64,000 nucleotides of DNA from Legionella parisiensis (GTDB lineage Bacteria; Pseudomonadota; Gammaproteobacteria; Legionellales; Legionellaceae). The notes below the pieces were generated by a model that saw only the letters and a program-made list of their open reading frames with translations, was not told the DNA's origin and searched no databases. Below are positions 4,491 through 48,079 of this stretch, piece by piece; the first letter of the stretch is position 1; each line of letters starts with the position of its first letter. The DNA is taken from NCBI RefSeq assembly GCF_001467945.1, contig NZ_LNYQ01000013.1:2239098-2303097 (forward strand), given 5' to 3'. The position numbers and the translations under genes were made by a program.

Positions 4491-5435
4491 ATGCGTATTG
4501 CTATGAATAGTCCTCTCATTAAATATCTAAAGCCAGCCCTAAGTTTTCAAGCTCAACTTGAAAAACTTCAAGCAAAAGGTCTTATTATAAATAATTGGTC
4601 TTCAGCACTGCAAAGTCTTTCAAATACCAACTATTATCGGCTTAGTGCCTACTGCTTGCCTTTTAAACGTTCCGACACATCATCAGGAAATATCACCGAA
4701 CAATTTCAAGATAATGTTACATTTGAAAATGTCATAGATCTCTATGAATTTGATCGTAAACTAAGATTGTTAGTAATGGATGGATTAGAGCGAATTGAAA
4801 TTTCAGTAAGAACCAGTATTGCTTATCACCTTGCTCATAGTTATGGACCATTTGCTTTGTCGAATCCTCAAAATTTCCATCAGCAATTTGAACATAATAC
4901 CTGGTTAGCACAAATTAATAACGAGATAGAGCGTTCCAGAGAGTACTTTATTGAGCATTATAAAAATAAATATCTGGGCTATCCTAACTTACCAATATGG
5001 ATGGCAATAGAGGTTTTATCCTTTGGTGCATTGTCGGTCTTATTTAAAGGGCTTAAAAATGAAGACAAAAGGATAATTGCTGAAGGTTATAAGTTACATC
5101 CAAAAACTTTAGCCAATTGGCTATACTTTCTAACTTATGTAAGAAATATATGTGCTCATCATAGCCGCCTTTGGAATAAAGATTTAGCCATTAAACCCAA
5201 AATTGATGCGATTAATGAACTTTGGCTACCTCCCATTACACCAAGAAATGATCGCTCATATATTATCTTGTTGATCATCAGAAAATTACTAACCACTGCG
5301 GGTAATGGCATAGATTGGGCAATATCATCCGAGAAACTTATTCAGCCTATTATTGAAAAATATGATTGGGCGCATGAAAGCATGGGAATTCCAAGGAGCT
5401 GGTTAGATCATCCATTGTGGAAAGAAGTTCAATAG
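4491..5435 (+). CDS. Abi_2/AbiF-like HEPN abortive infection protein
   Basis: About 314 residues from the ATG at 4491. ATG 4503 is an equally possible start, and an in-frame ATG at 4467 would lie inside the RNA stem and is unlikely. The sequence fits the Abi_2 family. Its N-terminus has KPALSFQAQLEKLQAKGLI, a YYRLSAYCLPF motif sits at about 50, and YEFDRKLRLLVMDGLERIEI at about 90. Near the end RNICAHHSRLWNKDL contains R218-x4-H223, the HEPN ribonuclease signature. The likely role is a phage-triggered RNase restrained by the adjacent RNA. It lies just inside an integrative element, a common site for defence genes. Confidence 0.85.
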   Translation: MRIAMNSPLIKYLKPALSFQAQLEKLQAKGLIINNWSSALQSLSNTNYYRLSAYCLPFKRSDTSSGNITEQFQDNVTFENVIDLYEFDRKLRLLVMDGLERIEISVRTSIAYHLAHSYGPFALSNPQNFHQQFEHNTWLAQINNEIERSREYFIEHYKNKYLGYPNLPIWMAIEVLSFGALSVLFKGLKNEDKRIIAEGYKLHPKTLANWLYFLTYVRNICAHHSRLWNKDLAIKPKIDAINELWLPPITPRNDRSYIILLIIRKLLTTAGNGIDWAISSEKLIQPIIEKYDWAHESMGIPRSWLDHPLWKEVQ

Positions 5436-35775: not shown

Positions 35776-37047
35776 ATGAAAACAGCCTGTTTTCTTCAAG
35801 GAATCATGACCATGATTTGCCTATGTTGGGGAGGGCTAGCCTTTGCAATTGCCAATGCACCCCTGACGTTAACCGAAGCAGAACATTTAGCTCTTGCCAC
35901 CTCCCCTGAATTAAAACGTTTCGAAGCAAATAGCCAAGCGTTACAACAGCAAGCCGTCGCCGATAGCCAATTATCCGATCCACAATTACTGGCAGGTACG
36001 ATTAATGTCCCTACCGATACCTTCAGTTTTACCCAAGACATGATGACCATGGTAGAGGTCGGTTTGCAGCAGCAATTTCCACGGGGTCGCTCTTTAAAGA
36101 TGAAATCCCAACAAACACAAGCGTTAGCGAAAGTAGAGCTTAAAAAAGCCTTTGATCAAGTCATCACCTTGTTACGTAACGTACGAGAAACTTGGTTAGA
36201 TCTGTATTATTGGACGAAAGCCTTGCAGGTTCTTCACGCCAATCGGTTGTTATATAAGGATTTACTGAAGGTCACGCAATCTCAATACAGTAACGGTAAA
36301 ATTAATCAATCCGATGTGATTCAAGTGGAATTGGAATTATCCCGCCTCAATGATCAGGAAATTCAAATTCAACAACAACTGGCTGTATTACGCGCGCAAC
36401 TCGCTCGATGGATTGGAGTTAAGGAAATCAATCGCTCATTGGTGCTTTCTATGCCCCGATGGCCTAGACCATCACCATTGAACCAGCTACAAGCTCGATT
36501 ACCCAAACATCCTTTGCTACAAGCCGATGCGGCCAATGTGAAAGCTTCTTATTACGAAGTCGCCTACGCTAAAGAACAATATAAACCGGGTTGGTTATTG
36601 GGCGTGAGTTATGGTTTTAGACAGGGGAGAATGCCAGGTGAGATGCCTCGGTCGGATATGCTAACGGCTCAAGTGACCATGGATTTGCCCTTTTTTACCG
36701 CCAATCGCCAAGATAGGCAATTAAGCGCCAGTTTCAATCGACTCAATGCGAGCCACTTTGAAAGACAAACACATTATCGAGATTTGCTTCAGGTACTCAG
36801 TGCGCAATATGCGACGTGGCAGCGTCTTTCAGAACGTGAGGTCATCTATGAAAAGCAATTGCTTCCTGAAGCAAAACAAAATGCCAAAGCGGCTTTATTG
36901 GCTTATCAAAGTGCAACCACTGAATTAACCACCGTGCTACGCGCCTACAGCAGCCAATTAACCATTCAACTGGAACAAGTACAGATACAAGTTGAGCGCC
37001 TGAAATCCCGTGCAACACTACTGTATTTAGAAGGAGTTGCTCTATGA
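35776..37047 (+). CDS. TolC-family outer membrane channel (RND system 1)
   Basis: 423 residues. Signal peptide about 1-25. Two OEP domains with long helices (LTLTEAEHLALATSPELKRFEAN at the start, then QFPRGRSLKMKSQQTQALAK). It corresponds to CusC/CzcC, the outer-membrane exit of a three-part metal pump. It overlaps the fusion-protein gene by four bases (ATGA), so the operon order is C-B-A. Confidence 0.87.
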   Translation: MKTACFLQGIMTMICLCWGGLAFAIANAPLTLTEAEHLALATSPELKRFEANSQALQQQAVADSQLSDPQLLAGTINVPTDTFSFTQDMMTMVEVGLQQQFPRGRSLKMKSQQTQALAKVELKKAFDQVITLLRNVRETWLDLYYWTKALQVLHANRLLYKDLLKVTQSQYSNGKINQSDVIQVELELSRLNDQEIQIQQQLAVLRAQLARWIGVKEINRSLVLSMPRWPRPSPLNQLQARLPKHPLLQADAANVKASYYEVAYAKEQYKPGWLLGVSYGFRQGRMPGEMPRSDMLTAQVTMDLPFFTANRQDRQLSASFNRLNASHFERQTHYRDLLQVLSAQYATWQRLSEREVIYEKQLLPEAKQNAKAALLAYQSATTELTTVLRAYSSQLTIQLEQVQIQVERLKSRATLLYLEGVAL

Positions 37048-38300
37048 ACAAGAAATTACTACTCATAATCGTAATCTCCATTATTTTGGGAGTGTTCCTG
37101 GGACGTTGGACAACTAACATCATTACTGGAAAAGCTTCACAAGAGGCAACCAACAAAAAACCACTCTATTGGATTGATCCCATGGAGCCAATGATTCATT
37201 ACCCAGGACCCGGAAAATCGCGCATGGGCATGGAACTTGTTCCGGTCTATCCAGACGACAACCAAGAAAAAGGTGAAAAAGCAACAGTTCAAATCTCACC
37301 ATCTGTAGTCAATAATCTTGGTGTACGTACAGTTCCAGTGATACAAACAACATTAGCAAGACATATAGACACAGTGGGGTTTGTAGAGCCTAATGAAAAT
37401 CAAATCAGCCATATTCATACTTATGCTGATGGCTGGGTGAAAAATCTGGTAGTCAAGGCAGTAGGTGATTCTGTTAAAAAAGGCCAATTGCTGTTGCAAT
37501 ATTACTCACCCCAATTAGTAACTGCTCAAGAAGAATATCTAATTGCCTTGGAAGGTAATAATCAATCCTTAATTACAGCGTCTTATAAACGATTACAAGC
37601 CTTACACATTTCCGAACAACAAATTGAAGACATCAAAAAAGGTCATCAATCGAATCAATTAGTAGCTGTTTATGCTCCACAAGATGGCATTGTTGCCGCT
37701 CTTAATATTCGAGAAGGTATGCGAGTTACGCCGGATGTGGAAATAATGAGTTTAGTTGATCTTGCCAACGTTTGGATGATTGCCCAAATTTTTGAAGAAC
37801 AAGCCAATTGGGTCAAGATAGGTGACCAAGCCGAAGCACGAATATCAGCGTTCCCACAAAAACAATGGAAAGGTAGGGTAGAATATATTTACCCTCGATT
37901 AGAGCCCATGACTCGCACCGTCAAAGTAAGATTTCGTTTTGATAATCCCGATAATCAATTAAAACCTAATATGTATGCCAGCATTTCTATCCTGGTCAAT
38001 CCGAAATCCAATGTGCTGAGTATTCCTCTTGAGGCTTTGATTCGAAGTCCACAAGGTGATCGAGTGATCGTGGCCTTAGGTAAGGGACGTTTTCAAGTCC
38101 GCCAAGTCAAAGCAGGTATGGAATCGGGTGATCGAGTCGAAATTCTTTCGGGCCTTAAGGTAGGAGAAAACGTCGTTGTTTCCGGACAATTTCTGCTTGA
38201 TTCCGAGTCGAATTTAAAAGCGGGTTTGGAGCGCTTGGAAACACCTGAAGAAAATGAAAAAAGGATACAATCAACGAACCCCAAAGGACAAAAACCATGA
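37044..38300 (+). CDS. cusB: CusB-type membrane fusion protein (RND system 1)
   Basis: 418 residues. N-terminal anchor helix (about 4-24). A heavy-metal-binding segment (YWIDPMEPMIHYPGPGKSRM, then GMELVPVY) corresponds to the YxCPMHP...GMxL module with the cysteines replaced and methionines kept, as in CusB. Barrel-sandwich, helical hairpin and beta-barrel domains follow (VDLANVWMIAQIFEEQANWV). It links pump to channel and delivers Cu(I)/Ag(I). Overlaps neighbours by four bases on both sides. Confidence 0.9.
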   Translation: MNKKLLLIIVISIILGVFLGRWTTNIITGKASQEATNKKPLYWIDPMEPMIHYPGPGKSRMGMELVPVYPDDNQEKGEKATVQISPSVVNNLGVRTVPVIQTTLARHIDTVGFVEPNENQISHIHTYADGWVKNLVVKAVGDSVKKGQLLLQYYSPQLVTAQEEYLIALEGNNQSLITASYKRLQALHISEQQIEDIKKGHQSNQLVAVYAPQDGIVAALNIREGMRVTPDVEIMSLVDLANVWMIAQIFEEQANWVKIGDQAEARISAFPQKQWKGRVEYIYPRLEPMTRTVKVRFRFDNPDNQLKPNMYASISILVNPKSNVLSIPLEALIRSPQGDRVIVALGKGRFQVRQVKAGMESGDRVEILSGLKVGENVVVSGQFLLDSESNLKAGLERLETPEENEKRIQSTNPKGQKP

Positions 38301-41300
38301 TTGCAAGCATCATTCGTTGGTCAATTAACAACCGATTTCTAGTGATACTCGTCACTGTAATGATGATAGTAGGAGGCCTCTACACCATCAATAACACCGT
38401 TGTTGATGCCATTCCCGATTTATCGGATGTCCAAGTGATTATTAAAACAGAATTTCCCGGACAAGCACCACAAGTGGTTGAAGATCAGGTGACTTATCCC
38501 TTAACCACCGCCATGTTAGCAGTACCCGGAGCTGTTACAGTAAGAGGTGAGTCAGGTTTTGGGGTGTCTTATGTGTATATCATTTTTAAAGATGGCGTTG
38601 ATCTGTATTGGGCACGTTCACGGGTTCTGGAATATTTAAGCCAAATTGCCAATCAATTACCACCTGGAGCACAAGTAGCTTTAGGACCTGATGCAACAGG
38701 TGTTGGATGGGTCTATGAATACGCGCTTGTTGATCGCACAGGCCAACATGATTTAGCTCAACTCACCAGTTTACAAAACTGGGTTCTCAAATTTGAATTA
38801 CAAAAAGTACCTGGTGTTGCTGAAGTAGCCACTGCAGGTGGCATGGTGAAACAATATCAAATTACTTTAGATCCCAACCGATTACGCGCCTACGGTTTGA
38901 CTCTCGACCAGGTCAAGCAAGCGGTGCAGAGAGGTAATCGTGAAGCAGGAGGCGCCACCATTGAAATGGGCGAAGCAGAATACATGATAAGAGCCAAAGG
39001 CTATTTGCAATCCATTCGGGACATTGAGCAAATTCCAGTGGGTTTAGGTAAAAATGGCATACCCATTTTGCTAAAAGAAATCGCTCATATACAACTAGGT
39101 CCACAAATACGACGCGGTATGACCGAATTAAATGGCGAAGGGGAAGTAGTGGGTGGCATTATTGTCATGCGCTCAGGCCAAAATGCCATGCAAACCATTG
39201 CCGGTGTCAGAGCAAAACTCAATCAATTGCAAGCAAGTCTTCCTAAAGGCGTGGAAATCATTACTACCTATGATCGCTCAAGTTTAATCCAACGAGCGAT
39301 TAATACTTTAAGGGATAAATTAATTGAAGAATTTATTGTTGTTTCCCTAATTTGTGTGGTTTTTTTATTCCATTTTCGCTCTTCATTAATCATTGTGATT
39401 AGCTTACCTATTGCTATTTTACTCGCATTGATAGTCATGCATGTGCAAGGGATTAATGCCAATATTATGTCCTTAGGGGGTATTGCTATTGCCATTGGTG
39501 CCATGGTAGATGCGGCCATTGTCATGATTGAAAATGCCCACAAGCACCTAGAGCATAATGCCATTACTTCAGAAAATCGCTGGCCAATGATGCAACAAGC
39601 AGCTCTTGAAATGGGGCCACCTTTATTTTTCTCTTTACTTATCATTACGGTGAGTTTCTTACCGGTTTTTACCTTACAAGCTCAAGAAGGACGGTTGTTT
39701 GCACCGCTTGCATATACCAAAACCTATGCAATGGCAGCTGCTGCAGCACTTTCAATTACCTTAGTACCTGTGTTAATGGGTTATCTTATCCGTGGCAAAA
39801 TAAAGGCGGAGCAAGAAAATCCAATCAATCGTGCCTTAATGGCTGTTTACCGACCGATTCTACAAGCGAGTTTGAAAACACCCAAAACAACACTGACAAT
39901 CGCAGCCTTCATCATGCTTATTGGATTTTGGCCTGTCTCTTATCTTGGTGGTGAATTTATGCCAGAACTGGATGAGGGGGACTTACTCTACATGCCAACC
40001 ACTTTTCCAGGCATTTCGGCAGGCAAAGCACAGCAACTTTTACAACAAACTGATAAATTGATTGCAAGTATCCCTGAGATTAAAACGGTATTTGGTAAGA
40101 TTGGGCGTGCTGAAACAGCAACGGACCCAGCTCCCTTATCGATGATAGAGACCACCATCCAGTTCAAACCTAAAAATGAATGGCGTCCTGGCATGACTAT
40201 GAATAAATTGCGTGATGAACTGGAGTCACGTCTCAAATTGCCAGGGCTTTCCAACGCGTGGGTGATGCCCATTAAAACCCGCATTGACATGTTAGCCACT
40301 GGGATTAAAACGCCTGTAGGGATTAAAGTTGCAGGACCTGATTTAAAAACCATTCAATCCATTGGCCAACAAATTGAAACTGTATTGAAAAAAGTACCGG
40401 GCACAACGTCTGTTTTTGCTGAACGAGTAGCCAGCAGCCGTTATGTGACAGTAGATATCAACCGCGTGAAAGCCGCGCGTTATGGGTTAAATATTGAAGA
40501 CATTCAGCAAATTATTGAAACAGCCGTTGGTGGAATGAATGTGACACAAACGATTGAAGGAAGGGAACGTTATCCGGTTAACTTGCGTTACCCGAGGGAG
40601 ATTCGCGATTCATTAGAAAACTTACGCTCACTGCCCATTGTCACTCCAACAGGAGCCACCATTCCTTTAAGTGAAGTGGCTAATGTTACGATTACCGAAG
40701 GACCTGATATGATTCGCAGTGAGAACGCCAGACTCAATGGCTGGGTTTATGTGGATATTACAGGACGTGATTTGGGCTCTTATGTGAAAGAAGCTCAGAA
40801 TATTATTAGACAACAGGTGAAGTTACCCGCAGGTTATTCACTAACCTGGTCTGGCCAATACGAATATTTGGAACGTGCCAAAGAACGCTTGTCTCTGGTT
40901 GTTCCTTTTACAATAGCCATTATTGCCTTCCTGCTGTATCTCAATTTTCGTCGCTTTGCTGAGGTCATCATTATTTTAGCAACCCTGCCCTTGGCATTAA
41001 TCGGCGGCATTTGGCTACTTTATTTATTGGGATATCATTTATCCGTTGCCGTAGGAGTTGGCTTTATTGCTTTGGCGGGCGTTGCTGCTGAAACAGGGGT
41101 CATCATGCTGGTATTTCTTAATCAAGCCTTGGAAAAACAACAGCAGCAAGCGAAGCAAGAGCAGCGTGCTCTTACCAAAGATAATGTGTATACCGCCGTA
41201 GTCGAAGGAGCACTCCTGCGCCTACGGCCCAAAATCATGACAGTGACTGCCATTATTGGAGGTTTATTGCCGATTATGCTATTAAGCGGCACGGGCTCTG

Positions 41301-41431
41301 AAGTGATGCGACGTATTGCTGCACCGATGGTTGGCGGGATGGCTAGTGCCACCATACTCACTCTGATTGTTATTCCGGTGATTTATCTTTTGTGGCAACA
41401 GAAAAAAATACTAATAAAAAATTTGAGTTAG
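38297..41431 (+). CDS. cusA: CusA-type heavy-metal RND pump (system 1)
   Basis: 1044 residues, 12 membrane helices with two large periplasmic loops. The helix-4 signature AIAIGAMVDAAIVMIENAHK is that of Cu(I)/Ag(I) HME-RND pumps. SNAWVMPIKTRIDMLATGIK matches the Met-containing binding cleft of CusA. Proton-antiport export of monovalent metal from periplasm or cytosol is inferred. Last gene of a CusCBA operon. No regulator gene is attached. A second CusA-type pump is encoded at 58151-61294, so the function is duplicated. Confidence 0.95.
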   Translation: MIASIIRWSINNRFLVILVTVMMIVGGLYTINNTVVDAIPDLSDVQVIIKTEFPGQAPQVVEDQVTYPLTTAMLAVPGAVTVRGESGFGVSYVYIIFKDGVDLYWARSRVLEYLSQIANQLPPGAQVALGPDATGVGWVYEYALVDRTGQHDLAQLTSLQNWVLKFELQKVPGVAEVATAGGMVKQYQITLDPNRLRAYGLTLDQVKQAVQRGNREAGGATIEMGEAEYMIRAKGYLQSIRDIEQIPVGLGKNGIPILLKEIAHIQLGPQIRRGMTELNGEGEVVGGIIVMRSGQNAMQTIAGVRAKLNQLQASLPKGVEIITTYDRSSLIQRAINTLRDKLIEEFIVVSLICVVFLFHFRSSLIIVISLPIAILLALIVMHVQGINANIMSLGGIAIAIGAMVDAAIVMIENAHKHLEHNAITSENRWPMMQQAALEMGPPLFFSLLIITVSFLPVFTLQAQEGRLFAPLAYTKTYAMAAAAALSITLVPVLMGYLIRGKIKAEQENPINRALMAVYRPILQASLKTPKTTLTIAAFIMLIGFWPVSYLGGEFMPELDEGDLLYMPTTFPGISAGKAQQLLQQTDKLIASIPEIKTVFGKIGRAETATDPAPLSMIETTIQFKPKNEWRPGMTMNKLRDELESRLKLPGLSNAWVMPIKTRIDMLATGIKTPVGIKVAGPDLKTIQSIGQQIETVLKKVPGTTSVFAERVASSRYVTVDINRVKAARYGLNIEDIQQIIETAVGGMNVTQTIEGRERYPVNLRYPREIRDSLENLRSLPIVTPTGATIPLSEVANVTITEGPDMIRSENARLNGWVYVDITGRDLGSYVKEAQNIIRQQVKLPAGYSLTWSGQYEYLERAKERLSLVVPFTIAIIAFLLYLNFRRFAEVIIILATLPLALIGGIWLLYLLGYHLSVAVGVGFIALAGVAAETGVIMLVFLNQALEKQQQQAKQEQRALTKDNVYTAVVEGALLRLRPKIMTVTAIIGGLLPIMLLSGTGSEVMRRIAAPMVGGMASATILTLIVIPVIYLLWQQKKILIKNLS

Positions 41432-42123: not shown

Positions 42124-42350
42124 AACATTTCTATCCAGACAAGTATCAGACTTATACACCGGCTCCATCACAGTACCTGCTAGAGTGATAAGATAGAGAG
42201 CCTGAGATTCTCCCCTACCTCACTATTACTTCAAAGCAGGCTACACAACAAAAATCAACCTGTCCTAGTATTTCTATTAACCCTAAATCAAGGTTGTTAA
42301 CACCATTTATCGCACCATTCGACTCGTTAACTATACAAAAAGCACAGTAC

Positions 42351-42406
42351 TTGACTTCAATTAGCTAGCATAATATTGTAATGTTGGAATGTTAAAAATC
42401 ATTCCA
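42351..42406 (+). promoter_or_regulatory. Promoter and inverted repeat of the Cys-Cys-Trp microgene
   Basis: TTGACT (42351-42356) and TATTGT (42374-42379) are 17 bases apart. A perfect inverted repeat TGGAATG (42385-42391)/CATTCCA (42400-42406) lies immediately downstream, where the transcript should begin. It could be an operator or a 5' hairpin. The microgene ATG follows at 42433. Confidence 0.5.
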
Positions 42407-42432
42407 TCTCATGTCATTTAAAAGGAGCTAAA

Positions 42433-42513
42433 ATGAATAAGTCAGATCTCATAAGGACAATTGTTACAAAAAAAATGAAAAATACTAAAGGGCGTAATCT
42501 TTGTTGTTGGTAA
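42433..42513 (+). CDS. 26-residue peptide ending Cys-Cys-Trp
   Basis: A tiny open frame, below the usual gene-calling limit. A strong AAAGGAG stands six bases before the ATG. The peptide is basic (MNKSDLIRTIV, then Lys/Arg-rich) and ends GRNLCCW. A promoter, an inverted repeat and a 13-bp hairpin frame it. The layout resembles genes for ribosomal peptide precursors such as microcin C, or leader peptides of attenuators (Cys/Trp codons just before a hairpin). No function is known. The downstream gene at 42590 is the obvious partner. Confidence 0.55.
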   Translation: MNKSDLIRTIVTKKMKNTKGRNLCCW

Positions 42514-42531
42514 TACCAGTATTATAAAAAG

Positions 42532-42565
42532 ATACCATTCACCTCATGACTTAGGTGAATGGTAT
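42532..42565 (+). terminator. 13-bp perfect hairpin after the microgene
   Basis: ATACCATTCACCT (42532-42544) pairs perfectly with AGGTGAATGGTAT (42553-42565) around an 8-base loop. TTTATCTT follows, a weak T tract. It lies 18 bases after the peptide stop and 24 bases before the next ATG. It could end most transcripts while letting some read through to the downstream gene. Confidence 0.65.
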
Positions 42566-42589
42566 TTATCTTATTAAGAGGTCATTTTC

Positions 42590-43045
42590 ATGACAACGCC
42601 AATTGATAAATTATTAGAATACAAAAACACACAAGTATTAAATAGGTATAAAAAAGATTATCCCAATAATAAATTAAAAGCCGAAGAAGCCTTTCCAGAG
42701 TTATTGAAATACTTATGGATTTCTCAAAAACATAAAGAAGATTTATGTCATTTTCCAGAAAATGACGAATTAAAGTTCTCCTGTGGAATATACCCTGACA
42801 TGTTGGATATTGATGACATGTGGCATACTTTCCTTCTTTTTACAAAGGATTATATGGCTTTTTGTGATCAATTTTTTGGAAAGTATGTACATCATACACC
42901 CACTTCAGACAACGAGCCAATACCTAACAATGAATTTGAAGTCGATTTCAGTCGATATTTATTCTATATTTATGACCATCTAGGAGAAGAAACCGTAAAA
43001 AAATGGTTTGGCGAACTACTAGAGGAAGAAGTTGATATGGCCTAA
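42590..43045 (+). CDS. GRDP-like unknown protein with WHTF and HHTP motifs
   Basis: 151 residues, soluble and acidic. AAGAGG is about nine bases before the ATG. The centre reads LDIDDMWHTFLLFTKDYMAF, then CDQFFGKYVHHTP. The His/Asp/Cys-rich pattern (DxDDMWHT and HHTP) resembles the glycine-rich-domain-protein-like (GRDP-like) family and suggests metal binding. I cannot assign an activity. It is directly downstream of the Cys-Cys-Trp peptide and may modify it or be regulated by it. Confidence 0.6.
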   Translation: MTTPIDKLLEYKNTQVLNRYKKDYPNNKLKAEEAFPELLKYLWISQKHKEDLCHFPENDELKFSCGIYPDMLDIDDMWHTFLLFTKDYMAFCDQFFGKYVHHTPTSDNEPIPNNEFEVDFSRYLFYIYDHLGEETVKKWFGELLEEEVDMA

Positions 43046-43081
43046 TGCAATTTTGCAAACACTGCCTACCAATATTGTCAC

Positions 43082-44137
43082 TTATGCACAGCAATTGAAT
43101 GGAATTGAAAATTGATAATCAGGAATCTCATGAATCGTCTTGCTGCTTGCTTTAAATAAATGAGTGCATTTTCTCAATGTATAATAATGCTCTTGTTTTA
43201 AAATTAGGTTGTTTTCATGTTTTTTCGCATTGTTTATATCCCCCATGAGCATCAGAAGATCTTTAAATAAATTTTTATAAATCACCTCAAAACCATAAGC
43301 TGCTACAAATCGACTAACCTCGTCAGGCGGTAAAGAAAAACAATGCAGTTCTCTAGATACAATTGGCATGTCTTCTGAAAAAGAATTAATTATTTTAGGA
43401 ATAAAACTCAATATGAATTCATCATGCTCCTCAAGAAGATTAGCCAACCCTGCTAATAACTGCATTACTCCCTTTTCATTTAAATACATCGTAAGACCTT
43501 CTGCGATTACTAATGTTTTGCTTCCTTTCTTAAATCCATTAGCACACAGAACTTCTTCTAAATTATCTTCTAAAAAATCACAGTCTACACAAAAGAAATT
43601 TTCATTAAAAATGTGGGTATGGTTAATTCTTATATCAACAGGTGCTTGTCGGATTCCAATTTCCTTTGGAATATTCAAGAGTGCTTTCAGTTTTATTTGA
43701 CGAGTTTGTCCCCTATCCAATTCATAAAACTGAACGTTTGGAAATTTTATTGATGAGATAAACGCTCGTACATCATAGCCACCACCTAGAAAAATAACTT
43801 GTCTTACACCGTTAGATAAAATTCCCTTTTCTACCTTGTGTTTCAGCATTAGTTTTCTAGCTAATATCATTGAGTGATAACCAGGAGTAACTGTTTTATT
43901 AAAAAAATTATGTTGTAAATAATGTAACAGTTTTTTTAGACTGTTTTCATCTCCATAAGAGCAGCCATAAGATTCGAAATCAACCACTGATGAAATGATG
44001 TGTTGGGCTAAACATAGTTCGATATAAAATTCAGAGGGTATTAATGGCTTATTTATAGATTGAATATAACTGCTCATCACGGAAAGCGCTGTTAAACTTG
44101 CGTTAACTCTATTGTTCTCTTTCATCACCTGAGTCAT
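43082..44137 (-). CDS. LCM-family SAM-dependent methyltransferase
   Basis: 351 residues. The SAM-binding motif QVIFLGGGYDVRAFIS and the post-motif VQFYELDRGQTRQIK match the leucine carboxyl methyltransferase (PPM/LCM) family, as do LVIAEGLTMYL and NLLEEHDEFILSFIP. Members methylate C-terminal or small-molecule carboxyl groups. It is convergent with the GRDP-like gene, 36 bases away, and carries its own promoter region. Whether it acts on the small peptide is speculation. Confidence 0.85.
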   Translation of the reverse strand: MTQVMKENNRVNASLTALSVMSSYIQSINKPLIPSEFYIELCLAQHIISSVVDFESYGCSYGDENSLKKLLHYLQHNFFNKTVTPGYHSMILARKLMLKHKVEKGILSNGVRQVIFLGGGYDVRAFISSIKFPNVQFYELDRGQTRQIKLKALLNIPKEIGIRQAPVDIRINHTHIFNENFFCVDCDFLEDNLEEVLCANGFKKGSKTLVIAEGLTMYLNEKGVMQLLAGLANLLEEHDEFILSFIPKIINSFSEDMPIVSRELHCFSLPPDEVSRFVAAYGFEVIYKNLFKDLLMLMGDINNAKKHENNLILKQEHYYTLRKCTHLFKASSKTIHEIPDYQFSIPFNCCA

Positions 44138-44417: not shown

Positions 44418-44870
44418 TTAATTAGGGGCATCCGAAGGATACAAAGAACGCAGCTGTGTCAACACTTTTTGCAATTTTTCCCAGTTGACTTGTGTCCCTT
44501 TTTTATCATTGGCATCGCCTGATTTATCAAGACGCGTGGCCAATTGACTGACATAGCTTAGATTTTGCTGCAGTGTTTTTTTCTGTTCCTCTGACAAATC
44601 CTTACTTAACGCAGGTAATGCGTTGACTAAATCGCGAATCGCAAACGCATGCTGGTGTATGGTCGTTAAATCATCACCACCGAGCACTTGATTAATGGAT
44701 GCCGCATGCTTATCTACTGCCTCCCAAAGGGCTGGAATCGTTTTGGGAATGGATTGTGTTGACTCTTCAGTAGAATCAGCCATTGCTTGAGAATACCCAC
44801 AAACCAACAAAACACTGGTGATAAGCCCCAACCAAAAATGGCTTTTTTGTTTCAAAGTAACGTGCTTCAT
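44418..44870 (-). CDS. Periplasmic helical protein of RND system 2
   Basis: 150 residues. Signal peptide about 1-31 (ends SQAMA). The mature part is all helical with His residues (HAASINQVL, TIHQHAFAIRDLV) and no cysteines. It overlaps the pump gene stop by four bases, so it is the last gene of this operon. Similar small helical proteins accompany CzcA-type pumps. Its role, perhaps metal sensing or buffering, is not known. Confidence 0.65.
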   Translation of the reverse strand: MKHVTLKQKSHFWLGLITSVLLVCGYSQAMADSTEESTQSIPKTIPALWEAVDKHAASINQVLGGDDLTTIHQHAFAIRDLVNALPALSKDLSEEQKKTLQQNLSYVSQLATRLDKSGDANDKKGTQVNWEKLQKVLTQLRSLYPSDAPN

Positions 44871-47800
44871 GTTGTTTCTCCTTGTTCTGTTTTATTGAAT
44901 TGCATCCGCTGTTCTCGCCATACTTCAATGGCGTTATACACCGTAGGTACCACAAACATATTGAGTACAGTAGAAGTAAATAATCCTCCCAAAAGCACCT
45001 GAGCTAAAGGGCGCTCCAATTCCTTACCAGCAGGCGAACCCCATAACAGAGGAATTAAGCCAAGTGCTGCTGTTGCGGCGGTCATGAGTACGGGCACTAA
45101 GCGATCGAGGGTTCCTTGAATGACCACTTGCTCACGTGGTTGTCCCTGGACACGTAATTGATTGTAGTGGCTCACTAAAATAATCCCATTACGTGCCGCG
45201 ATTCCAAATAAGGTGATAAAACCAATCATAGCCGCCACACTCATGTTAGCACCGGCAAGAAACAAAGAAATGACCCCACCAATCAAAGCCAAAGGCAAAT
45301 TGAACATCACAAGCAGTGCCTCACGAAATGTGCCGAAAGCCTTATGAAGCAGGATTAACATGATAAAAACAGCAAGTGCACCAAAAAGAATAATCACGCG
45401 AGAGGCTTGCTGCTGACTTTCAAACTGACCACCATACTGAATGAAATAACCGCTGGGCAATGTCACCTTTTCCTTAACCCGTTGTTGCACTTCTTGAATC
45501 ACACTACCTAAATCCCTCTCTTGCACATTAAAAGCAATCACCAAAACACGCTGCACATTTTCCCGATTAATTGCAAAAGGCTGGGGTTCTAGGCGAATAT
45601 CAGCTACCGCACGCAAAGGAATTTTAGTTTTCTGATTCTCCGCTCCATGAGCGTCAATCAGCATGTTTTGAATGGCTTTAACACTGTCTCGTCCTGTTTC
45701 ACTCATGCGCAAATACAAATCAAAGGTTCGCTGCCCTTCAAGAATACTCGACACGGTTATGCCATTCAAAAGAACTTGAACATCCTCGGAAATTTGCCCC
45801 ACATTAATGCCATAACGTGTGGCTTTTTCTCGGTCAATGGTAATGACCAACTGGGGTACATTAATTTGTTGCTCTTTGTTAACATCCACTATTCCTGGTA
45901 CGGTTTTTAATAGGACTTCGACTGATTGACCCAGTTCGTTTAATGTCGCAAGATTATCACCAAAGAGCTTCACCGCCACTTGTGCTCTGACCCCTGATAG
46001 CACTTCATCCATACGATGGGCAATAAATTGACCCACATTAAACAGCGCTCCTGGGATGTTTGCCAAATCCGCTCGAATGCGTTGCAATAATTCATCCGCA
46101 GACATGGTCTTGTCTTTGCCAAAATCCAGGCGCACATCGAACTCACTGATGTTGGGTGGTAGGGCATCTTCGTCCAATTCACTGCGGCCTGCCCGTTGAG
46201 CAATGGAAATCACTTGCGGATACTTCAACAAGGTTTTACTGACTTGATTGCCTAAGCGCATGGACTCATCCAGCGAGGTTCCTGGCAACGTACTCATTAC
46301 AATAATAAAATTGCCCTCATGAAACTCAGGTAAGAAGGAAGTCCCAAAAAAAGGAAGTAAAGCTAAAGCAAAAGCAAATGCACCAATTGCGATAGTCACG
46401 ACCGTTTTACAATGGTCCAATGACCAATTTAACCCCATTAAAAAATGTTTTTTTAGCCAAATCACAAAACGAGTTTCCGCTTGAGATTGTTTGGCTGCTT
46501 CTTCTTCCGTCAAATGATAACGTTCCTCTTGAGATAAAACATGCATCACCACTTTATTCTCTTGCTGTTTTTCACTTTTTCGCACTAAAAGGAGATAACA
46601 AAGGGCCGGCACCATAGTAATAGAGACAACAAGAGAGCCTAAGACTGATGCGATATAAGCAATGGCTAAAGGACTAAAAATCCGCTCAGGGATTCCTGAC
46701 AGAAAGAAAATGGGCAAAAACACAAGGCTAATAATAATGGTCGCATAAACCACGGAACTTCGAATTTCCAAAACCGCATCAAAAACAATTTCAATCGTGG
46801 GTAACGGTTTATCGCTCATGCGATTAAGCCTTAAGCGATGGACCACGTTTTCAACGGTGATGATGCCATCGTCCACCACTTCACCAATCGCAATTGCCAT
46901 CCCACCCAAGGTCATCGAATTGATACCAAAACCAAAATAATGAAGCACCAGGATACCGACAATAAAAGAAACCGGCATGGACAAAAACGTAATAAAAGAA
47001 GCTCGCCAATTCATTAAAAAAAGAAACAATACCGCAATGACGATAATTGCTCCTTCAATCAGGGCTTTCGTTAAGTTATGAATAGCCGATTCAATAAAAT
47101 TGGCTTGACGAAACACCTCGGTAATTAATTCAATCCCTGCGGGCAACGATTTTTTGATATCCGCTAAAGCTTGTTCCACTTTATGTGTCGTGGTTAATGT
47201 GTCGGCGCCATAAATTTTAGAAACAGTACCAATCACCGCATGTTCTGCATTATAAGACGCATCACCCCGTTTAATTTCACCACCGAAAGCGACTGCAGCC
47301 ACATTATCAATGGTAATAGGAACCCCGTTACGGACTACAATCAGTGTTTTTTTAATATCCTTAAGCGTTTTAATCCGTCCAATGGTGCTCACTACGAATT
47401 CAGTACCGGCCTGATGGACAAAAGCACCAGGCACATTTTGATTTCCTGTTGTTAACGCTTGGCGCACTTCTTCAACCGTGATGCCATAGGCCAGCATGCG
47501 CGAAGGAATAAGCTGCACTTGATATTGCTTGACTTCTCCGCCTAAGGAAACTACAGAAGCCACCCCGCCTAAAGCTAAGAGGCGCGGACGAATAGTCCAA
47601 TCGGAAATGGTTCGCAGTGTTTCTGGGCTTTCCGTGCGGCTCACCAATGCATATTTAAGCAACCACCCGACCGCTGAGGTGACTGGCAGCATCACCGGTG
47701 ACGAGACCCCCGGAGGAAGGCGATTTACTACTTGTTGAATACGTTCATTAACCAGTTGGCGATTGCGGTAGATGTCCGTTTTATCATCAAATACCACGGT

Positions 47801-48079
47801 AATGGTCGATAATCCAACGGAAGTTTTTGAGCGAACACTAGCTACCCCTGGTGTTCCATTAATAGCGCTTTCCAAAGGGTAAGTCACCAGGGTTTCCACA
47901 TCTTGGGTTGCCATGCCAGGCGCTTGGGTTTGAACTACCACTTGCGGTGGTGCAAATTCAGGAAAAACATCCACCGGCATTCGTTTTAGGGTATAACCAC
48001 CCAGTAAACAAAGAATAATCGTTAACGCCAAAATCAAAGGGCGATTATGTAAAGACCAGGCAATGAGGCGAGTAAACAT
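44867..48079 (-). CDS. Heavy-metal RND pump, CzcA family (system 2)
   Basis: 1070 residues, 12 membrane helices. The helix-4 signature MAIAIGEVVDDGIITVENVV differs from the CusA form (MVDAA) and fits the less-studied HME5-like group, whose substrate is unsettled. The periplasmic segment FIAHRMDEVLSGVRAQVAVK also lacks the CusA methionine. It is preceded by its fusion protein, whose gene abuts directly, and by a TolC-like channel. Likely a divalent metal pump. Cytoplasmic charged loop about 490-530. Confidence 0.93.
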   Translation of the reverse strand: MFTRLIAWSLHNRPLILALTIILCLLGGYTLKRMPVDVFPEFAPPQVVVQTQAPGMATQDVETLVTYPLESAINGTPGVASVRSKTSVGLSTITVVFDDKTDIYRNRQLVNERIQQVVNRLPPGVSSPVMLPVTSAVGWLLKYALVSRTESPETLRTISDWTIRPRLLALGGVASVVSLGGEVKQYQVQLIPSRMLAYGITVEEVRQALTTGNQNVPGAFVHQAGTEFVVSTIGRIKTLKDIKKTLIVVRNGVPITIDNVAAVAFGGEIKRGDASYNAEHAVIGTVSKIYGADTLTTTHKVEQALADIKKSLPAGIELITEVFRQANFIESAIHNLTKALIEGAIIVIAVLFLFLMNWRASFITFLSMPVSFIVGILVLHYFGFGINSMTLGGMAIAIGEVVDDGIITVENVVHRLRLNRMSDKPLPTIEIVFDAVLEIRSSVVYATIIISLVFLPIFFLSGIPERIFSPLAIAYIASVLGSLVVSITMVPALCYLLLVRKSEKQQENKVVMHVLSQEERYHLTEEEAAKQSQAETRFVIWLKKHFLMGLNWSLDHCKTVVTIAIGAFAFALALLPFFGTSFLPEFHEGNFIIVMSTLPGTSLDESMRLGNQVSKTLLKYPQVISIAQRAGRSELDEDALPPNISEFDVRLDFGKDKTMSADELLQRIRADLANIPGALFNVGQFIAHRMDEVLSGVRAQVAVKLFGDNLATLNELGQSVEVLLKTVPGIVDVNKEQQINVPQLVITIDREKATRYGINVGQISEDVQVLLNGITVSSILEGQRTFDLYLRMSETGRDSVKAIQNMLIDAHGAENQKTKIPLRAVADIRLEPQPFAINRENVQRVLVIAFNVQERDLGSVIQEVQQRVKEKVTLPSGYFIQYGGQFESQQQASRVIILFGALAVFIMLILLHKAFGTFREALLVMFNLPLALIGGVISLFLAGANMSVAAMIGFITLFGIAARNGIILVSHYNQLRVQGQPREQVVIQGTLDRLVPVLMTAATAALGLIPLLWGSPAGKELERPLAQVLLGGLFTSTVLNMFVVPTVYNAIEVWREQRMQFNKTEQGETT

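Follow-up and report, generated by a model that had tools for sequence, protein, structure and literature searches.

We describe a two-gene locus of Legionella parisiensis in which a gene for a 26-residue peptide with two adjacent cysteines is followed by a gene for a 151-residue protein, here called the partner. The locus lies in a stretch of 64,000 nucleotides, which was analysed as a whole and is referred to as the window (contig NZ_LNYQ01000013.1, positions 2,239,098 to 2,303,097, of assembly GCF_001467945.1, genome G000 in our set). Peptide and partner genes occur together in almost all loci compared in Legionella and Bacteroidota, the peptides of the relatives are under purifying selection, and the partner is homologous to the N-terminal part of MctA from the microcin 1229 operon. 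We consider it probable that the window locus is a two-gene module resembling those of ribosomally synthesized and post-translationally modified peptides (RiPPs), with a split precursor and a dedicated, probably metal-dependent maturation partner.

Conservation of the peptide and partner genes

The core of the locus consists of the following features:

42422..42427, + strand: Shine-Dalgarno sequence AAGGAG of the peptide gene, with the ATG five bases further on (sequence)
42433..42513, + strand: putative precursor peptide gene, 26 aa, basic leader and C-terminal GRNLCCW (open reading frame, leave-out profile)
42532..42565, + strand: terminator-like perfect 13-bp stem with an 8-nt loop, between the peptide and partner genes (terminator scan, fold, repeat search)
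42590..43045, + strand: partner gene, 151 aa, with D-x2-WH and HH, homolog of the N-terminal part of MctA (open reading frame, alignment, tblastn)

The peptide, MNKSDLIRTIVTKKMKNTKGRNLCCW, would have a leader of approximately residues 1–18, and the partner contains the stretches DDMWHTF and YVHHTP. The 26-codon frame with its ribosome-binding site, the perfect hairpin and the gene with the WHTF and HHTP motifs had been pointed out in a preliminary description of the sequence, and all of them were located. The same locus is present in L. gratiana, with 861 of 870 bases identical over 42251–43120; a single synonymous base change separates the two peptide genes, and a single residue the two 151-aa proteins.

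Homologs of the partner were found in 40 of the 45 Legionella genomes searched, with four copies in the L. parisiensis genome itself, and also in Bacteroidota. Pairing was counted over 77 loci from these two groups, the window included; two of them (L005 and L009) represent one L. gratiana gene, leaving 76 distinct loci, and a partial partner match of 41 residues (G026) lies outside this set. Under a fixed rule, a gene for a Cys-bearing peptide of 26–38 aa was found directly upstream in 71 of the 77 loci, and L046 has an upstream peptide as well, which the rule missed. Together with two loci where the peptide lies downstream, 74 of the 77 loci (73 of the 76 distinct ones) have a Cys-peptide gene, 72 upstream and two downstream. 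Among the three remaining loci, L007 and L028 lie at contig ends, which leave only 135 and 60 bases in front of the partner gene, so that the missing peptide has no meaning there, and in L068 the partner gene is in pieces. The preliminary description had made its reading depend on a conserved short frame beside the homologs, and such a frame is what these loci contain.

Two further analyses concern the peptide gene itself. A profile built from 27 peptides, excluding that of the window (a profile including it matches the known loci by construction, so that the leave-out version is the fair test), placed the window peptide first among 2,549 frames of the window with an E-value of 1.7e-5, the next frame having 1.9. 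A rule blind to the family (a frame of 24–42 aa with a ribosome site and a Cys close to its end) was satisfied in front of 15 of the 25 partner genes, compared to 3 of 237 other genes from the same contexts. Neither the window peptide nor four other family peptides tested match any Pfam or NCBIfam model.

The peptides of the family are exemplified by MKEKIIKKIVREKALKKSKGWCGPGTCIG, MKKQLVQQIVKAKIAKGMMRCKCCRYS, MTKEEMICRIVRYVTQKPSTKKACCG and MNTIKKDLIAQILEDKAANAVGGTHCGGGGHCTSSL. They end in CGPGTCIG, KCCRYS, CCG, HCGGGGHCTSSL and other sequences, in which Cys pairs are present and CCW is not recurrent. Of the 45 Legionella genomes, 39 have one copy each of the type MTKEEMICR...CCG, close variants included; the end of the same open reading frame (...RCVIW) precedes the pair in 22 of 38 loci of this type, and in these 38 loci the peptide and partner genes overlap or almost touch (−8 to +14 bases). 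A degenerate peptide relic (L170) was noticed in one Legionella genome, G044, for which the search gave no partner gene. Eight pattern matches in viral contigs included no relative, and two phage records gave weak matches.

The ratio of non-synonymous to synonymous substitution rates (dN/dS) was 0.086, 0.104 and 0.119 in three groups of peptides, the estimates being rough, as synonymous sites approach saturation. In the CCG group these sites are saturated over the final seven codons, for which no ratio is given; the last ten residues of the five sequences of the KCCRYS group show no amino-acid change, and both adjacent cysteines are invariant in the MTKEE group. The peptides of the relatives are under purifying selection, and the family has the organisation by which RiPP systems are recognized, namely, a short precursor gene, with a conserved leader and a variable core, beside a partner gene.

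The partner domain in microcin 1229 and in distant bacteria

Five residues of the partner (D75, W78, H79, H101 and H102) are invariant among 36 aligned members, that is, the window protein and 35 relatives. In a pattern count over 138 distinct cores, D-x2-WH was present in 133, the five misses being four wrong placements and one empty string, and HH was present in 131, with two real departures (L112 and L188) among the seven misses. No Pfam or NCBIfam model matches the window partner at a meaningful score, and none of the 36 members matched PHROGs or PADLOC at an E-value of 0.001. The label GRDP-like, which had been attached to this protein, applies only remotely: none of the 36 members matches PF07173 at an E-value of 0.1, and the best hit of a distant relative, at 20.6 bits, falls short of the cut-off (22.7), the sub-threshold hits spanning the D-x2-WH stretch. 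Two other matches, of MctA to NF033719 (E-value 5e-4, 19.5 of 425 bits) and of one partner from locus L193 to NF041881 (E-value 0.033), lie far under the cut-offs and were taken as chance.

MctA aligns with the window partner over 93% of the latter at 28.8% identity (tblastn, E-value 4e-15). The partner domain was found by tblastn on 25 E. coli plasmid records, among them p0.1229_3, and mctA is plasmid-borne in 36 of 5,426 E. coli genomes. In MctA of the sister plasmid pHUSEC41-3 the partner domain is followed by a Cys-rich tail, ...CGCSGKGCGAGCSCNSR. According to a study of this system (PMC8853679), microcin 1229 activity requires each of mctA, mctB and mctC of p0.1229_3, entry into the target cell depends on CirA and TonB, the genes are regulated by Fur, and immunity is encoded by a region of two genes. 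The same study remarks on the Cys-rich end of MctA, names no domain for this protein in the sections consulted and states that the chemical identity of the microcin is unknown; the class is called unclear in a review (PMC10233263).

At an E-value of 1e-6, relatives of the partner were found in 29 genomes out of 369 searched for the class, in 16 out of 398 for the phylum and in 9 out of 295 for a class of Bacteroidota; many of them are distant, with similarity limited to the surroundings of D-x2-WH...HH. The split arrangement varies: L081 has two partner genes and two peptides, and L082 has three tandem peptides. Intact pairs are also available from the non-pathogens Reichenbachiella agariperforans (L006) and Aureibacter tunicatorum (L122). 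One gammaproteobacterial genus had matches in 7 of 36 genomes (10 of 60 when other families are included). Its loci L193, L196 and L197 encode three to five Cys-rich peptides with leaders ending in ...NISGG or ...VSGG, one or two partner genes, HlyD and a C39-peptidase exporter, and are apparently bacteriocin loci. The exporter of L193 consists of Peptidase_C39 and ATP-binding cassette (ABC) domains and is nearest to NHLP bacteriocin exporters, with a score below the model cut-off; in L198 partner and exporter genes stand at the start of a contig. No relative of the L193-type exporter was found in three other loci of the genus (L199–L201), one of which, L199, has a frame with an ...ILNNISGG leader at 4789–5058 (+), about 1.8 kb upstream of its partner gene. 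TonB receptor genes are found in at least six of 24 contexts and on a Piscirickettsia plasmid; the receptor gene of L142 is fragmented, and in Aureibacter the genes for CobN, ExbB, the peptide, the partner and the receptor form a row of one orientation.

In fused forms, the partner domain carries a Cys-rich tail of its own. The fused tail of L149 reads CGPGTC, which many split Legionella peptides have as their core, while the fused proteins of L101, L114, L116 and L118 have C-terminal tails resembling CWHDC...CWHAC. A tree of 75 rows, to which we assigned the labels split and fused, requires at least three changes between these states, two of them forced by well-supported branches (the tree was made by a quick method and has some long branches). 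Seventeen further proteins (L083, L084, L086–L089, L092, L093, L147, L148 and L151–L157) combine the partner domain with what appears by eye to be an N-terminal membrane segment, and their tails are rich in Gly and Cys, for example, CGGGCGGD.

Signals and surroundings of the pair

Two further features precede the peptide gene:

42351..42379, + strand: promoter-like −35/−10 (TTGACT-17-TATTGT), consensus scan 9/12, chance level
42385..42406, no strand: 7-bp inverted repeat close to the likely transcript start, possible operator (repeat search)

The preliminary description had assigned the peptide gene its own promoter. A match to nine of the 12 consensus positions is there; since four such sites were found in 551 bases versus 2.7 expected, it is at the level of chance. 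The inverted repeat that was also claimed there is TGGAATG/CATTCCA (arms 42385–42391 and 42400–42406); in L. gratiana one arm is altered to CGGAATG, which leaves 6 bp. In 18 of 33 loci of other than the MTKEE type, GTTAC-N6-GTAAC is found 78–85 bases ahead of the peptide start (background: 63 of 10,050 random 160-mers, real sites among them). This site is missing from the window copy, which carries its own 7-bp repeat instead. The 18 loci are Legionella loci such as L002, L013 and L022, and in the sequences inspected GTTAC-N6-GTAAC immediately precedes the −35-like TTGAC of the peptide gene.

The arms of the 13-bp hairpin are 42532–42544 and 42553–42565. The fold of 42514–42589 has −22.1 kcal/mol and a z-score of −4.82, none of 200 shuffled sequences being equally stable, and a terminator scan detects the hairpin on both strands (two found versus 0.2 expected); the T tail behind it is weak (TTTATCTTATT). 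The minimum-energy fold of the spacer contains this stem and one small hairpin and no competing stem, and an Rfam scan of the window at the gathering score gave no match. Spacers of 40–130 nt between peptide and partner genes have z-scores below −2 in 19 of 23 cases, counting L001, L005 and L009, which are identical or almost identical loci, and their hairpins differ in sequence; no hairpin was found in L027, and L026 is within the range of shuffled sequences. This recurrent layout is consistent with the read-through terminator suggested in the preliminary description.

Upstream of the window pair lies a gene pair for a ParE/RelE-type toxin and a RelB-like antitoxin, the latter scoring below the cut-off of its model. 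The peptide–partner pair sits between two resistance-nodulation-division (RND) efflux systems, at 37044–41431 (+) and 44867–48079 (−), and one RND adaptor has a heavy-metal-binding domain. A gene for an LCM-family S-adenosylmethionine-dependent methyltransferase (43082–44137, −) is convergent with the pair, and a different methyltransferase cluster, one member of which is Methyltransf_25, is found close to at least four other Legionella pair loci; a tailoring link between methyltransferases and the pairs is possible but unproven. Among the 24 contexts, at least six contain an HxlR-type gene and at least four a LysR-type gene (one member per cluster scanned; one or two members of each neighbour cluster were assigned by Pfam and the others by BLAST similarity).

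Proposed function and comparison with known systems

The near-universal D-x2-WH and HH led us to propose that the partner is a small metal-dependent protein that would bind the leader and act on the Cys-bearing core. In the window, the 26-aa peptide would be the precursor, with a basic N-terminal leader recognized by the partner and a short core, NLCCW. Partial read-through of the hairpin would make the partner mRNA less abundant than the peptide mRNA, as befits a catalyst and its substrate. The partner may then mature the core through a metal site formed most likely by the residues of D-x2-WH and HH, acting at or near the cysteines, and would in this case be the candidate modifying enzyme of the preliminary description. 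The product would probably be a small Cys-based peptide used to capture metals or in competition; this is suggested by the TonB receptors or bacteriocin exporters that accompany relatives, and by the fusion of the domain with a Cys-rich segment in microcin 1229.

Several observations weigh against this explanation. The CCW ending is found, among the loci seen, only in the window and in L. gratiana, i.e. in two near-identical genomes. In L011 and L012 the peptide lies 55–72 bases downstream of the partner gene on the opposite strand, an arrangement at odds with the read-through model. We know of no catalytic activity for any member of the family, and a profile search of the sequences in the PDB gave solely a chance-level match (eS17, E-value 0.2). 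MctA needs an additional protein with a JmjC/cupin domain, MctC. In 15 Legionella contexts of 12–13 kb, the window included, no relative of MctB or MctC and none of the C39 exporter, HlyD or two TonB receptors was found (tblastn, E-value 1e-3), and the transport genes near the window pair are RND pumps and an adaptor only. These null results make it possible that the product serves inside the cell or leaves it by way of genes located elsewhere; they slightly weaken the explanation given above and slightly raise that of an intracellular role.

The requirement of microcin 1229 for MctC, the small size of the domain (about 140 aa) and the lack of a meaningful match to any characterized enzyme family would agree with a partner that is no enzyme, but a leader-binding chaperone, a stability factor or an immunity-like protein, so that the peptides would act unmodified, disulfide-linked or metal-binding, and other enzymes, such as MctC in E. 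coli, would do any chemistry. However, the residues kept in nearly all of the 138 cores resemble a metal or active site rather than a binding surface, and the 15 Legionella contexts contain no MctC relative; we regard this as rather unlikely. Less likely still is a pair acting only inside the cell, be it a peptide for metal handling or redox reactions that has the partner as its helper, or a toxic one against which the partner protects, with no secreted product. The single-copy MTKEE type and its frequently retained position, the null results for exporters and receptors in Legionella and the two RND pumps, one with the heavy-metal-binding adaptor, speak for it, whereas the exporter, GG-leader and TonB-receptor contexts of the distant relatives and the secretion of microcin 1229 speak against it.

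Control of the downstream gene by a Cys/Trp attenuator, which the preliminary description had named as the competing explanation, would account for UGU UGU UGG followed by a stop codon and the terminator-like hairpin. It is nevertheless very improbable and was rejected as largely refuted: the control codons are not kept in the homologous peptides, dN/dS values of about 0.1 indicate selection on the protein, the spacer fold has no competing stem, and the downstream gene has no recognizable link to Cys or Trp synthesis. That the short frame is a chance frame and no gene, as might be argued from the abundance of short open reading frames and the chance-level promoter match, has practically negligible probability, and it was rejected on the basis of the leave-out profile and the family-blind control.

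Beyond the window, we tentatively propose that the partners make up a new family of enzymes, small and metal-dependent, that act on Cys-bearing peptides and found a RiPP class with split forms (Legionella, Bacteroidota and the gammaproteobacterial GG-leader loci) and fused forms (MctA and Cys-tailed proteins of other bacteria), which would explain microcin 1229 and offer a class for it. One odd microgene has thus become a member of a family of peptide–partner pairs, one type of which occurs once in most of the Legionella genomes searched, and the partner family, with no match to a solved structure and no known activity, probably makes or handles Cys-based peptides. No description of such a family was found in the literature covered, from which subscription journals are mostly absent. 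The pair is RiPP-like or microcin-like and is not placed in any named class.

The closest known system is that of microcin 1229, in which MctA has the same domain as the window partner followed by a Cys-rich segment. The domain and the Cys segment form one 232-aa protein there, whereas they are encoded by separate genes in the window; the operon moreover includes an ABC transporter and the JmjC/cupin protein, with two immunity genes adjoining. No match to MctB or MctC was obtained by tblastn within 13 kb around the window pair, and no DUF4440 or DUF2164 immunity frames were noticed beside it, no search having been aimed at them. A RiPP-like precursor beside its cognate partner, as put forward in the preliminary description, agrees with the conserved pairing, the exporter loci and MctA; the more specific assignment to the microcin C type was rejected. 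Microcin C involves a ThiF/E1-type adenylating enzyme and a heptapeptide precursor, whereas the window partner has no ThiF/E1-type match and the peptide has 26 aa. Class II microcins and other bacteriocins with GG leaders share GG leaders, HlyD and a C39 exporter with some distant loci of the family, but the window peptide lacks a GG leader, and no relative of the C39 exporter was found near it. The precursors of bufferins are longer peptides of other families. The MNIO (DUF692) class was rejected, as the window partner has no DUF692 match, the rest of the genome not having been searched for one. RiPPs of that class such as the bufferins, which have been reported in Legionella, do resemble the pair in having Cys-bearing precursors beside a metal-dependent partner (PMC12452194). 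Borosin enzymes are alpha-N-methyltransferases, and the window partner matches no methyltransferase model; the likeness lies in the architecture, since borosins have the maturation domain fused to the precursor in some members and separate from it in others (PMC8429565).
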